Shown here piece by piece: positions 15,671 through 20,335 of a stretch of 64,000 nt of DNA. The stretch's first letter is position 1. Each line of letters opens with the position of its first letter. The notes beneath the pieces are model-generated. The model was given only the letters and a program-made list of their open reading frames with translations. It was not told where the DNA came from and did no database searches. The stretch is taken from positions 2,418,001 to 2,482,000 of the forward strand of contig NZ_JBFRYB010000001.1 in NCBI RefSeq assembly GCF_040892595.1. Direction: 5' to 3'. The stretch comes from Zhongshania sp. R06B22. Lineage in GTDB: Bacteria > Pseudomonadota > Gammaproteobacteria > Pseudomonadales > Spongiibacteraceae. Position numbers and translations under genes: made by a program.

Positions 15671-16483
15671 TTAAAACAACGGAAAGCCGATACCAATACC
15701 AAATGTCACCACTGGCCCGGCACCAGTCTCAACCCTGTTTAACACATCGGTGGCGCCCAAACTGGCCGTGATCGGCAAGCTGCGAAACGGTAGAAAGGAG
15801 AAAGCAGCGTTTAGCAGGCTGGAGTTGGCATCCAGTACGAGTGCTGTTCTGGCGGAGGGTTTAAACGCTATAGCGGCAAAAGGCGCTATCTCAGCCCCCT
15901 CAGTGCGCCCAAGGCTATCTACTGTCCGCAGACGTCCGTCACCACCGCCGACAGTCAAAGTGATCCGGGAAAACTGATCCACGCCGACTTGGGTGAGAAG
16001 GAATGTTTTAGTCACTGCGACATAAGTAGTGGTCTCGGTATCAAGATCTTTAGCCGTGCCCCAGGTGCCAAAATTTTCCACGCCAATAGCAATACTGCCC
16101 CAGCCCTCGGGTAATACCCGGTGCCACACCGCGTTAAAAGAACCACTGTCGGCAAACTCGTCCGTCAGGCTAATGATTGCCATGCTTAAATCGAGCGCAC
16201 CAAAGGTCTGACGAGGATCGAAAAAACCCGCGCCCAACACCATCGACCCATCGTAATCCTTAGACACACTTGGGTCAGGGTTTAAGTAGGCAAGGCCCAA
16301 ACCAGCATAAGCGATGCCATTAGATGCGCCGCTCCCGGTTGGAGAGCCGGCAGAAATACCAGTGCCGCCCACCAAGGGAACCTGTCCCCGAGCATTAGCA
16401 ACCTGTCCCTGCGCAAATACCGCGCTAGAAGTCAAACTAGCCAACAGCGTCAAGCCCGCCAAAGCGGGAGAATATCGAAACAT
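15671..16483 (-). CDS. Probable outer-membrane beta-barrel protein, unknown family
   Basis: 270 aa with a clear signal peptide (LTLLASLTSSAVFAQ) and Gly-rich alternating strands throughout (GIAYAGLGLAYL, SMVLGAGFF, ITLTVGGGDGRL). The protein ends FGIGIGFPLF, a C-terminal Phe consistent with an outer-membrane barrel. I cannot name the family. It is the first gene of the four-gene envelope operon, with AAGG about 8 nt before the ATG. The promoter is expected in the AT-rich sequence around 16500-16720. Confidence 0.65.
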   Translation of the reverse strand: MFRYSPALAGLTLLASLTSSAVFAQGQVANARGQVPLVGGTGISAGSPTGSGASNGIAYAGLGLAYLNPDPSVSKDYDGSMVLGAGFFDPRQTFGALDLSMAIISLTDEFADSGSFNAVWHRVLPEGWGSIAIGVENFGTWGTAKDLDTETTTYVAVTKTFLLTQVGVDQFSRITLTVGGGDGRLRTVDSLGRTEGAEIAPFAAIAFKPSARTALVLDANSSLLNAAFSFLPFRSLPITASLGATDVLNRVETGAGPVVTFGIGIGFPLF

Positions 16484-17190
16484 AAAGAAGCCTTATTTTA
16501 TGGAGCCCCTGAGGGCAAATATTACTTGGGAGCAGCCATAAACCTGCTGATTTTATCTTTCTTATCACCACCACTTGTTAACATCGCGGCGGCGCACGGA
16601 CAGTAACACGTCTCCGACACACATATTCTTTTTCACGCCAAATAACTTATGTGTAATAAAAAATTATTATAAAAAATAATATATTAGGTCTAAGTTTTTA
16701 TGTTGATACTTAGAATAGTGGGCACACAGGCTGTGATCCCAAATAGGCACGGGATGAGCACCCGAAGATCGAAACGTGGATAAGGTTTGCAGTTAGTTGA
16801 TCTAATCGATTTTAAGTCGACCTGCCCCACCGTCGGGAGTATTTAGTGCGCTAAGCGACTTTTTTTGAGTTTGAAATACCAGACACTAGATAGGGATTTG
16901 TATTGCGAGTGGCGATGATTATGCCGCTGGCTAAGGGCATGCCAGTTAGGCGAAAACCGTTACATTTACTTGGCGTGAGAAATGATGTGCTAACAAAGTT
17001 GAGTTACTGATTCTGGTGCCGCCATCAGTTTGTGGACGAGAAGACTATTTCGTTAGCCGGGCAGGTAAAAGATAATGAAGTACCGTGTATAACTAGCGCA
17101 GGTGAACTGCTTGATAACGGAGATTAACGTGCAATCATTCCCGCGTTTTCCTGCGGTTATTATCTACTGGTCGGGAAAATCCCGGAGGAA
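16484..17190. other. Non-coding gap of about 700 nt
   Basis: No convincing protein gene on either strand. The part nearest the envelope operon (about 16630-16720) is very AT-rich and likely holds that operon's promoter. A stretch from about 16720 to 16867 is more GC-balanced and ends in a T7 run after a small hairpin, so a small RNA is possible. I compared it by eye with cyclic-di-GMP and cobalamin riboswitch patterns and did not see a match. A CGGGA-AAA-TCCCG hairpin at 17172-17184, just past the tRNA-Cys 3' end, may help terminate the tRNA transcript. Confidence 0.5.
16844..16867 (+). terminator. Possible rho-independent terminator
   Basis: A short imperfect stem (AGT-G-CGC, loop TAA, GCG-ACT) is followed directly by seven T residues. 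The stem is only about six pairs with one bulge, so the support is modest. If real, it would end a transcript of unknown identity on the + strand coming from about 16720. Confidence 0.3.
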
Positions 17191-17264
17191 TGGAGGCGCG
17201 GGTCGGAATCGAACCGGCGTACACGGAGTTGCAGTCCGCTGCATGACCACTCTGCCACCGCGCC
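17191..17264 (-). tRNA. tRNA-Cys (GCA)
   Basis: On the minus strand the 74-nt sequence folds as a complete cloverleaf. The 5' acceptor strand GGCGCGG pairs with the 3' strand CCGCGCC. The anticodon loop CTGCAAC holds GCA, the T-arm is GCCGGTTCGATTCCGAC, and an encoded CCA ends at 17191. It is the second tRNA of a Gly-Cys pair downstream of pgsA, as in the glyW-cysT-leuZ arrangement of E. coli. No tRNA-Leu follows here. Confidence 0.95.
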
Positions 17265-17579
17265 TATGATCGTATTGTCTTACACCGAGGTGTACGCCGG
17301 TTCGAATCTTCCGGCACTTTCTTTTCGCTGCGGGCGCTGGAGTTACAGCCACTGCATGACCACTCTGCCACCGCGCCTATGATCGTATTGTCTTACACCG
17401 AGGTGTACGCCGGTTCGAATCTTCCGGCACTTTTTTTCGCTGCGGGCGCTGGAGTTACAGCCACTGCATGACCACTCTGCCACCGCGCCTATGATCGTAT
17501 TGTCTTACACCGAGGTGTACGCCGGTTCGAATCTTCCGGCACTTTCTTTTCGCTGCGGGCGCTGGAGTTACAGTTAACT
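17241..17579. repeat. Three tandem ~113-bp repeats containing the 5' part of tRNA-Cys
   Basis: Units start at 17241, 17354 and 17466 and are 113, 112 and 114 bp long, nearly identical. On the minus strand each unit begins with 24 nt identical to the 5' end of tRNA-Cys. In the two upstream copies (17339-17377, 17451-17489) this continues into a diverged anticodon arm (CTGTAAC for CTGCAAC) and then unrelated sequence. A worn fourth start lies at about 17564-17600. Each unit also has two hairpins: TACACC-GA-GGTGTA, and GCCGG-10 nt-CCGGC followed by a T-rich run on the + strand. The array fills the space between tRNA-Gly and tRNA-Cys. Confidence 0.9.
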
Positions 17580-17646
17580 GCATTACTCTGCCACTTTACC
17601 ACTTTGAAAAACTGCATTGCAGACACGCTGCATTGCAACGATATAT

Positions 17647-17722
17647 TGGAGCGGGAAAGGAGGCTCGAACTCCCGACCTCAACCTTGGCAAGGTTGCGCT
17701 CTACCAACTGAGCTATTCCCGC
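17647..17722 (-). tRNA. tRNA-Gly (GCC)
   Basis: On the minus strand the 76-nt sequence starts GCGGGAATAGCTCAG and has the anticodon arm AACCTTGCCAAGGTT (GCC). It carries the T-arm GGGAGTTCGAGCCTCCT and ends TTCCCGC-TCCA with the CCA encoded. All arms pair. It is the first gene after the promoter at 17801-17828 and is separated from tRNA-Cys by the repeat array. Confidence 0.96.
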
Positions 17723-17800
17723 GTCGCACTATATCTAGATAGTTTACTTGATCTCTCAAGCCCAATTTACAGCTCGGGGCTGTGCTTCAGGAAGGCGCCT

Positions 17801-17828
17801 ATTCTAGTGAGTGATTATTTTCTGTCAA
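17801..17828 (-). promoter_or_regulatory. Sigma-70 promoter of the tRNA-Gly/tRNA-Cys operon
   Basis: On the minus strand a perfect -35 TTGACA (17828-17823) and a -10 TAGAAT (17806-17801) are separated by 16 nt. A GC-rich discriminator (AGGCGCC) follows, as in stable-RNA promoters under stringent control. It lies just past the pgsA stop, so the tRNAs need not depend on pgsA transcription. Confidence 0.75.
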
Positions 17829-17857
17829 GCAAAGTCTCTGATTTAACGTGTTTTTTT

Positions 17858-18418
17858 CTAATTTCCGGCTGTATCACGCAAATCTGGCCACGCCGCATGA
17901 AGATAAATCACCATCGACCACAATGTGAGTATCGCCGCAGTATACAGACACGCAATATTGGCATAATACAATAGGCCTTCGCTATCTGGCGACACCAGCA
18001 ACCACCCAAAAATTGCCACCATTTGTACCGCTGTCTTTACCTTGCCCAAATATGACACTGCCACGCTGGTGCGCTTGCCTAGCTCAGCCATCCACTCTCT
18101 CAAGGCGGAGATGACAATTTCGCGGCCGATAATAATAATCGCCGGAATGGTAAACCAAGGCGCATCGTAGCGTTCAATTAATAGAGCCAATGCAACCGAG
18201 ATCATCAGCTTGTCTGCAACCGGGTCTAGAAACGCGCCCAGCGCCGTACTTTGCCCTAACTTGCGCGCCAGATAACCATCAAGCCAATCCGTGACCGCCG
18301 CCACCGCAAATACTACCGCCGTTAAAAAATAGGTGTGGGCCTGGGGCCAGTAAAATAAGGCCACGAGTACCGGTATTAGCAGAATCCGGAACAGTGTCAG
18401 GGAGTTAGGTATATTCAT
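17858..18418 (-). CDS. pgsA: CDP-diacylglycerol--glycerol-3-phosphate 3-phosphatidyltransferase
   Basis: PgsA, 186 aa, makes phosphatidylglycerol phosphate from CDP-diacylglycerol and glycerol-3-phosphate in the inner membrane. The CDP-alcohol phosphotransferase motif is complete: D44-x2-D47-G48-x2-A51-R52-x8-G61-x3-D65-x3-D69. About four to five membrane segments are visible (LFRILLIPVLVALFYW, FLTAVVFAVAAV, YYANIACLYTAAILTLWSMVIYL). It starts 42 nt after uvrC, completing the conserved uvrY-uvrC-pgsA-tRNA order of gammaproteobacteria. Confidence 0.96.
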   Translation of the reverse strand: MNIPNSLTLFRILLIPVLVALFYWPQAHTYFLTAVVFAVAAVTDWLDGYLARKLGQSTALGAFLDPVADKLMISVALALLIERYDAPWFTIPAIIIIGREIVISALREWMAELGKRTSVAVSYLGKVKTAVQMVAIFGWLLVSPDSEGLLYYANIACLYTAAILTLWSMVIYLHAAWPDLRDTAGN

Positions 18419-18460
18419 ATGGGTCTCATTAGGGAGAGTCGTGGCTATTCTATTCGTTTT

Positions 18461-20335
18461 CTAGGCGCTGCGCAGGCCCTCATGAATTTGTTGGGCAATT
18501 TTTTCACTAATACCTGACACCCGTCGCAAATCCTCAACACTCGCCTGCCGCACGCCGTGTATGCCACCAAAGTGCCGCAGCAAGTCACGCCGGCGCTTTG
18601 CGCCGACCCCAGGTATTGATTCAAGCGACGACTGCGTCCGGGCTTTATCTCTGCGACCTTTATGGCCGGTAATAGCAAACCGGTGAGATTCGTCGCGAAT
18701 ATGCTGAATAAGATGCAGCGCTGGGCTGTTGTCAGGCAGGCTAAGCTCGCGGCCATCATCACCGCGAATGAGTATTTCCAAACCGGCACGGCGGTCTGCG
18801 CCCTTGGAAACACCTACCATGAATAATCCGTCTATGCCGAGCTCTTCCATCACTTGCTTGGCCTGACTGAGCTGGCCTTTGCCGCCGTCAATAAATAATA
18901 TATCCGGCATCACAATCTCACCCGCTTTCACTCGCTTGTAGCGGCGGCTAAGCGCCTGACGCATGGCGGCGTAATCATCACCAGCCGCGACGCCATCAAT
19001 ATTCATTTTGCGATAATCAGACTTAAGCGGGCCGTTGCCATCGAAAACAACGCAGGAGGCGACTGTTGCTTCACCACTGGTATGGCTTATATCGAAACAT
19101 TCCATGCGCTCAGGCTTATCAGCTAACTCTAACACCGCTTGCAGCGCTTTGAATCGCTTTAATGTACTTGCCGAAGAGGCGAGCCGATTGACTAAGTTTT
19201 GCTCTGCCGCAGTCAGCGCTAAGCTCAGCCACTTGGCACGATGACTTCGCACATTGTGGCTTATGCTAACTTGCCGGCCCGCCTCCTCACTTAAGCCCCC
19301 CGCCAGTAAGGCGGCATCATCAAGTGCAATATTAGTAATGATCTCGCGGGGCATATCTGCCCGACCGGAGCCGATCAGGTAGTGTTGCGCCACAAAGGCT
19401 TCGAGTTGCGACACCAGCGGCTCTTCTAGCTGGCTTTTAGGGAAATAACTGCGGCTGCCCAACACCCGCCCGCCGCGCACGCAGAGCAATTGTATGCAAG
19501 CGGTTCCGGCGTCCATAACGCCGGCCACGATGTCGATATCCCCGGTTTCGCCTTCAATGCACTGGGTCGCTTGTACCTGCTGCAGGTGGCCTATGCGGTC
19601 TCTGAGTTCGGCCGCTTTTTCAAATTCTAAAATGCTGGCGCAGCGCTCCATTTCATCGGCTAGCTCGCGACTCACATCGCTACTTTTCCCCTGTAAAAAC
19701 ATCTGTGTATGATGAACATCTAATGCGTATTCTTGATCGCTAACCGCGTTAACACAGGGACCAGAGCAGCGCCCAATTTGGTACTGCAAACACGGCCGGC
19801 TGCGCCCGCGGTAATAGCTGTCTTCACACTGGCGCACCCGAAACACTTTCTGTAACCAACTCAAGCTTTCACGCACTGCGGCGGCACTTGGATAAGGGCC
19901 GAAATACATGCCCTTGCCTTTTTTGGTGCCGCGATGAATAGTCACTCGCGGATGCTTATGGTCGGTACTTAAATAGATATAGGGATAGGATTTATCGTCA
20001 CGCAGGAGAATATTGTAAGGCGGCTTGTATTGTTTAATGAGGTTTTGTTCAAGCAGCAAGGCTTCGCGCTCGCTCGCGGTTACCGTCACTTCTATTTGCT
20101 GAATATGCGATACCAAGGCCACGGTCTTGCTGGTAAGCCCACTAGCCCGAAAATAGCTACTCAGGCGGTTGCGCAAATTTTTGGCTTTACCAACGTAAAG
20201 CACATCTGCCTTGGCATTGAGCATGACGTAAACGCCCGCCTTAGCGGTAACATTCTTCAAAAAGGTTTTGGCGTCGAAAACGGCGGGGCCAGGATCACCC
20301 GTGGCATCAGAGGTTTCTATGTTTTCACTGCTCAT
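18461..20335 (-). CDS. uvrC: Excinuclease ABC subunit C
   Basis: UvrC, 624 aa, makes both incisions in nucleotide excision repair after UvrAB loads the lesion. The N-terminal GIY-YIG nuclease is visible (GVYVMLNAKADVLYVGKAKNLR near 34-55). A UVR motif for UvrB contact lies near 205-240, then the RNase H-like C-terminal nuclease (ECFDISHTSGE, DILFIDGGKGQL), and finally tandem helix-hairpin-helix motifs (SIPGVGAKRRRDLLRHFG, RRVSGISEKIAQQI). Full length. It follows the response regulator by 19 nt. Confidence 0.97.
   Translation of the reverse strand: MSSENIETSDATGDPGPAVFDAKTFLKNVTAKAGVYVMLNAKADVLYVGKAKNLRNRLSSYFRASGLTSKTVALVSHIQQIEVTVTASEREALLLEQNLIKQYKPPYNILLRDDKSYPYIYLSTDHKHPRVTIHRGTKKGKGMYFGPYPSAAAVRESLSWLQKVFRVRQCEDSYYRGRSRPCLQYQIGRCSGPCVNAVSDQEYALDVHHTQMFLQGKSSDVSRELADEMERCASILEFEKAAELRDRIGHLQQVQATQCIEGETGDIDIVAGVMDAGTACIQLLCVRGGRVLGSRSYFPKSQLEEPLVSQLEAFVAQHYLIGSGRADMPREIITNIALDDAALLAGGLSEEAGRQVSISHNVRSHRAKWLSLALTAAEQNLVNRLASSASTLKRFKALQAVLELADKPERMECFDISHTSGEATVASCVVFDGNGPLKSDYRKMNIDGVAAGDDYAAMRQALSRRYKRVKAGEIVMPDILFIDGGKGQLSQAKQVMEELGIDGLFMVGVSKGADRRAGLEILIRGDDGRELSLPDNSPALHLIQHIRDESHRFAITGHKGRRDKARTQSSLESIPGVGAKRRRDLLRHFGGIHGVRQASVEDLRRVSGISEKIAQQIHEGLRSA

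Follow-up and report, generated by a model that had tools for sequence, protein, structure and literature searches.

Tandem repeats joining a tRNA-Cys 5' end to an inverted T-arm precede tRNA-Cys in Zhongshania and its relatives and resemble a 5'-side variant of RtT repeats

What is a tandem array of tRNA fragments doing between two tRNA genes, and which part of it is kept? We addressed this question in a 64-kb stretch of the genome of Zhongshania sp. R06B22 (hereafter the window; the genome is designated G000, and other G numbers denote genomes of relatives). The array, which is read on the minus strand, separates tRNA-Gly from tRNA-Cys and lies beside pgsA. These are the two tRNAs that ARAGORN predicted within the window, and the tRNA-Cys is the only one of its kind among the 36 tRNA matches of the genome. 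The locus, in the order of the presumed transcript, reads as follows.

17858..18418, minus strand: pgsA (TIGR00560, above cut-off), used as position marker in relatives
17801..17828, minus strand: sigma-70 promoter-like TTGACA-16-TAGAAT, 11/12, upstream of tRNA-Gly
17647..17722, minus strand: tRNA-Gly (GCC), ARAGORN, first gene of the presumed transcript
17490..17600, minus strand: unit 1, outermost, 111 bp, 5' start worn
17378..17489, minus strand: unit 2, 112 bp, 5' start intact
17265..17377, minus strand: unit 3, 113 bp, adjoining tRNA-Cys and made up of a tRNA-Cys 5'-half copy, linker, hairpin A, hairpin B and A-rich stretch
17191..17264, minus strand: tRNA-Cys (GCA), ARAGORN; nt 41-56 (17224-17209) are the possible antisense target

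Tandem Repeats Finder delimited the array at 17225-17573 (period 112, 3.1 copies, 97% matches), and a repeat search placed the copies at 17236-17348, 17349-17461 and 17461-17573, spaced by 113/112; the unit limits listed above follow minus-strand reading, starting at the tRNA 5' end. The first-pass annotation had described three nearly identical units of ~113 bp between two tRNA genes, each opening with 24 nt of tRNA-Cys followed by a diverged anticodon arm and holding two hairpins, behind a strong tRNA promoter. Repeat finding bore out the units, the anticodon arm is indeed diverged, folding predicted the two hairpins, and the promoter corresponds to the 11/12 match. The exact copy of the tRNA-Cys 5' stretch proved to be 26 nt rather than 24, and it is present in two window units only, the outermost being worn. 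On the opposite strand, promoter-like ATGACC-16-TATGAT sites (9/12; plus strand, 17243-17270, 17356-17383 and 17468-17495) fall at each tRNA-Cys 5'-end copy of the window.

The tandem array before tRNA-Cys is genuine, conserved and unusual. Arrays were also found in the relatives G011 and G004 on contigs of 3.5-4.1 Mb, which argues against an assembly artefact in general. A genome self-search returned the array as the sole strong match of the unit, with no other convincing copy and not the many genomic copies of a REP-like dispersed repeat; two weak matches of 16-18 nt (L005, L006) look like chance. No functional tRNA gene was found in the units, as ARAGORN over the window and Rfam over 16000-19000 gave only tRNA-Cys and tRNA-Gly.

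Each unit consists of four parts: (a) the 5' half of tRNA-Cys (about nt 1-40), repeated as a direct copy; (b) a linker rich in GC, AGCGCC-YGCRGCG-A-rich; (c) an inverted copy of the variable loop and T-arm of tRNA-Cys, laid across two predicted hairpins; and (d) an A-rich stretch reaching the next tRNA 5' end. The inverted T-arm, together with the likeness to RtT repeats described below, is absent from the first-pass annotation and was found in this analysis; every unit holds a 19-nt inverted match to the T-arm of tRNA-Cys (95%). Hairpin A is predicted as GCCGG, loop, CCGGC and hairpin B as TACAC, loop, GTGTA. The stretch TCGAACCGGCGTACAC, which extends from one hairpin (A) into the other (B), reads as the reverse complement of tRNA-Cys nt 41-56; its hairpin partners, GCCGG and GTGTA, are short copies of the tRNA stretch with which TCGAACCGGCGTACAC could pair.

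17265..17315, minus strand: conserved leader block of unit 3, with hairpin A at 17315-17296, hairpin B at 17294-17281 and the A-rich stretch to the tRNA
17290..17305, minus strand: antisense strand TCGAACCGGCGTACAC of unit 3, complementary to tRNA-Cys nt 41-56
17403-17418 and 17515-17530, minus strand: antisense TCGAACCGGCGTACAC in units 2 and 1

The predicted hairpin fold and the predicted leader:tRNA fold are mutually exclusive. A single window unit showed no extra stability on folding (z -0.33; 65/200 dinucleotide shuffles were as stable), and the 532-nt stretch including both tRNAs gave z -2.2. Two other folds were tried and rejected. A T-armless tRNA, in which GGCGC of the 5' half pairs with GCGCC of the linker, does not hold in G160, where the acceptor end is GGCTAGG and the linker still reads GCGCC; in a refolded 5'-half hairpin proposed by RNAalifold, each pair is broken in up to 2/18 units. 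Of 21 sequences, 7 show a C-A mismatch in the linker hairpin.

A pgsA-guided search of 57 genomes gave matches in 55 (the family member G019 had none), and the locus was read in 20 family genomes. The leader element occupies the same position in 16 of these 20; G006, G009, G012 and G013, read in the same way via pgsA, have a plain spacer of 25-38 nt and no element. This comparison of copy number at the pgsA-tRNA region, which the first-pass annotation had called for, yielded one to four complete hairpin blocks in the 16 carriers: four in G011, three each in the window genome and G020, two each in G004 and G018, and one in the remaining eleven, some of which have an adjacent remnant. Over the 120 pairs of the 16 genomes, the last leader block (~50 nt) had a mean identity of 73.7%, a value somewhat inflated because the block limits were set by a motif spanning parts of both hairpins. 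Comparison values were 55.2% for the first 25 nt after tRNA-Gly, 49.8% for the 60 nt after tRNA-Cys, 48.8% for shuffled blocks and 38.3% for pgsA fourfold sites, and the block was more alike than the downstream flank in 119/120 pairs. The 5'-half copies are worn or shortened in the outer unit of G000 and in G002, G003, G005, G008 and G010, and are missing from G001 and G007. Judged by identity, the leader block (hairpins plus A-rich stretch) is conserved among relatives, whereas the 5'-half copy is not. As separate observations on the locus, tRNA-Gly, array and tRNA-Cys form one cassette in G004 (L055 / L010) that is inverted relative to pgsA, and tandem-repeated tRNA-Gly/tRNA-Cys pairs occur at L061 (G049), L092 (G056) and L105 (G087).

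The leader is complementary to its own tRNA-Cys in 16/16 of these genomes, in an unbroken run of 12-18 nt that begins at tRNA nt 39-41 and admits G-U pairs. In the window genome, with up to 500 bp covered on each side of the 36 tRNAs, inverted copies of at least 12 nt occurred only at tRNA-Cys; direct copies of 12-19 nt were found in the flanks of two tRNA-Met and one tRNA-Ser as well. The complementary run of the 51-nt tRNA-Cys leader is 16 nt, the next best among the genome's tRNAs being 10. The predicted duplex of the leader with its own tRNA-Cys was stronger than all 60 shuffles in 18/22 genomes, and in the exceptions the real value was reached by 3 (G016), 5 (G007), 1 (G032) and 7 (G073) of the 60. 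These comparisons make antisense complementarity to tRNA-Cys well supported at the level of sequence. Calculated with energies that exclude modification, tertiary contacts and folding during transcription, the minimum-energy fold was the leader:tRNA duplex in 13/16 family genomes, 5.5-12.9 kcal/mol under the forced cloverleaf; the leader hairpins won in G007, G016 and G017, with a gap of 3.7, as for tRNA-Cys alone. Shuffled leaders also yield duplex-cloverleaf gaps, with means of 1.0-7.4, and the real gap lay above every shuffle in just 4 of 22 genomes (G000, G010, G160 and G394), so that a predicted bistability of leader plus tRNA-Cys is weakly supported.

Rarer relatives of the unit precede tRNA-Cys in three other families (f13, f16 and f47). 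Covariance model R1 matched 17/390 order genomes at E<=0.01, namely 14 of the family plus G032 (f13), G160 (f16) and G167 (f47), a count made, like all searches of more than 40 genomes, with stricter filters under which weak matches may be missed. At E<=1, 3/12 genomes of f13 were matched: G032, weakly G073, which has a recognisable unit before tRNA-Cys, and G220, in which the stretch read holds no tRNA. Model R2 matched 3/41 genomes of f16 (G160, G394, G401) and 1/10 of f47 (G167) at E<=0.1, and in the class sample 1/369 at E<=0.05, namely the window genome. G160 has two tandem units that retain linker and hairpin A and whose 5' halves match its own tRNA-Cys, of the GGCTAGG type; in G394, which also has a GGCTAGG tRNA-Cys, the 5' half equals that tRNA over 40 nt and the linker is different; the 5'-side leader of G401 lies directly after a pgsA-like gene and has a longer antisense. 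A DNA-pattern search of a named genome collection gave 9 stretches, all from Zhongshania, Spongiibacter, Litorivivens or another member of the Spongiibacteraceae. Other kinds of copy were seen in tRNA-Cys leaders: about 15 nt or more of the tRNA-Cys 5' end, in a differing partial copy with no evident inverted T-arm, at L018 (G043) and L030 (G082), and at L059 (G037) a direct copy of the tRNA's CTCCGTGTACGCCGG.

How, then, is the array best explained? The making of such an array is ordinary; the point of interest is the conserved antisense held by sense copies. Among the interpretations offered by the first-pass annotation, slippage or unequal crossing-over fits the variable copy number and the near-identical units, and a regulatory or processing leader is our best guess, since it is the hairpin block immediately before the tRNA that is conserved. 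The reading that we prefer, tentatively and without calling it probable, is that a single leader unit gave rise to the array through tandem duplication and through unequal exchange between its repeats, and that the selected part is the leader block, which would act in cis on the precursor to control the folding or processing of pre-tRNA-Cys. With the antisense held by the leader hairpins, tRNA-Cys would fold and RNase P would cut; a freed antisense would pair with about nt 41-58 of tRNA-Cys, and maturation would be blocked. The leader element may be the 5'-side counterpart of RtT, which joins a tRNA 3' end to inverted T-arm pieces. We judged such a cis effect on precursor folding or cleavage the most likely explanation, a by-product the second and a released RNA the third.

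The second explanation, which we rate as somewhat unlikely, is a functionless mutational by-product: template switching, occurring at a tRNA gene, would have produced the inverted T-arm, slippage between the tRNA repeats multiplied the units and homogenisation kept the copies alike. It would account for 5'-half copies that decay, for a copy number that is variable or zero, for the sporadic occurrence outside the family (3/41 and 1/10 in f16 and f47) and for an energy gap mostly inside the shuffle range. Base-pair covariation, which was not significant in the six- and five-pair stems (one double-sided change, within shuffles), can also be counted on its side. At the sixth position of hairpin B, 10/16 have a C-G, G-C, A-U or U-G pair and 6 are unpaired. 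Since the stems are almost frozen, covariation speaks neither for nor against them; frozen stems would be expected if their bases pair with both the covering strand and a fixed tRNA sequence, and a bound protein would be an alternative cause. What a by-product explains poorly is that the leader block is far more alike than its flanks, where identity equals that of shuffled sequence, and that the block persists in G001 and G007, where there is no second copy from which it could be homogenised.

A trans-acting RNA is unlikely. Here the spacer, cut out by RNase P, would become a small RNA or a sponge comparable to the 3'ETS of glyW-cysT-leuZ, and additional units would raise the dose. PMC7154689 describes a spacer of this E. 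coli transcript as a sponge that binds small RNAs. The same kind of tRNA cluster recurs here, with the order Gly-Cys-Leu in G048, G053, G027 and G032, and the end of each unit is the start of a tRNA 5' end. Against this, the genome self-search revealed no trans target, only the two weak matches, and the best complementarity is to tRNA-Cys itself. Quite improbable is a very small mobile element that, in the manner of integrating elements, uses a tRNA end as its insertion site and brings its own copy of that end. A direct repeat of the tRNA end does flank each unit, the presence of units is patchy, and the window unit falls outside a clade (99/98) of eight other Zhongshania-side units, among which the window pgsA is placed; but this grouping is not significant (AU p 0.10), and horizontal transfer of the window unit, for which the tree gives only a hint, was not adopted. 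The genome holds no further copies, a search of a viral collection with the same DNA pattern as above found none, a 73-nt query had no matches in phage and plasmid records at E<=0.01, and the 5'-half copies of G160 and G394 match the host's own tRNA. The decoy of tRNA 5' halves raised by the first-pass annotation is very improbable: two window units have an intact 26-nt start and leaders of several families contain 5'-half copies, but the halves are the least conserved part and decay while the hairpin block stays.

The array can be set beside several known systems. The 3'ETS-leuZ sponge is, like the window spacer, a non-tRNA part of a transcript from the same kind of tRNA cluster; it is a 3' trailer that binds small RNAs, whereas the window spacer is 5' or internal, contains repeats and has no known partner. 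In ordinary partial tRNA duplications, too, a portion of a tRNA is repeated directly next to the gene; unlike them, the window-type units share a linker and an inverted T-arm across families. None of the literature matches listed concerned such 5'-side tRNA-Cys repeats.

The repeats at tyrT have long puzzled bacterial geneticists, and RtT gives rise to an RNA product from the tRNA transcript. RtT (Rfam RF00391; E. coli rttR at tyrT/tyrV) is the closest known kind to the window array. Both are tandem units that adjoin a tRNA gene and hold a direct copy of one tRNA end, and in the RtT repeats of E. coli and G000, as in the window array, there are inverted T-arm pieces predicted to pair with local sense copies. 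They differ in position and in the end that is copied: RtT follows its tRNA on the 3' side and repeats the final 10-19 nt, whereas the window array precedes its tRNA on the 5' side and repeats the initial 26-40 nt. A search with the RtT model at E<=1 gave no match in 16000-19000 of the window or at the tRNA-Cys loci L182, L151 and L146, and the identical search does find repeats behind tRNA-Ser in the window genome. These RtT-type repeats lie outside the window, behind tRNA-Ser(GGA) at G000:C1:2391530-2391870 (L180, L186; 163 bp x 2.2), and give two matches, both under the RF00391 gathering score. At E<=0.01 the model matched 4/38 relatives searched (G000, G004, G021, G026), all behind tRNA-Ser(GGA). 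In G021 the unit repeats 10 nt of the tRNA 3' end directly; E. coli, G000, G004 and G026 have a longer direct copy, of 18-19 nt.

The inverted T-arm piece as an RtT feature was observed in this analysis and not taken from a published description. It measures 11 nt in the G000 unit (0/500 shuffles as long), 10 nt in two E. coli tyrT/tyrV units (6/500 and 5/500) and, weakly, 9 nt in the G004 unit (21/500), and is at chance level in G021 (8 nt, 94/500) and G026 (7 nt, 229/500). When four RtT units were folded (two from E. coli, one each from G000 and G004), the inverted pieces paired with local sense copies, and the predicted duplex with the own tRNA was stronger than all 100 shuffles in three of the four, with 2/100 as strong for G004. 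Likeness between linkers was not relied on: the 10 exact bases shared with the tRNA-Ser RtT unit were reached by 6/200 shuffles, and the likeness to E. coli RtT by 120/200. G401 has both forms, a 5'-side unit before tRNA-Cys and two 3'-side units behind it. The latter (L151 1674-1803) are ~65 bp repeats, each with a CGGCGTAC/GTGTACGCCG palindrome, and the first holds the last 22 nt of tRNA-Cys.

Because the RtT model does not match it and its copies come from the opposite end of the tRNA, the window array is a variant of RtT and not a member; in its sequence it is built like a 5' mirror of RtT. It is doubtful, though conceivable, that RtT (at tRNA-Tyr and tRNA-Ser) and the tRNA-Cys 5' repeats form one class of tRNA-flanking RNAs, each with a T-arm antisense held by sense copies from the same tRNA, which switch a precursor tRNA between maturing and blocked states; if so, the arrays would be the visible mark of that class. 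A 5'-side form, family-wide in marine bacteria and coexisting with the 3'-side form, provides comparative material for the tyrT puzzle and a testable idea, namely that tRNA folding is under the control of what both forms share, the antisense T-arm with the sense copies that hold it. Even if this idea is wrong, both ends of a tRNA gene are seen to be able to grow similar inverted repeats.
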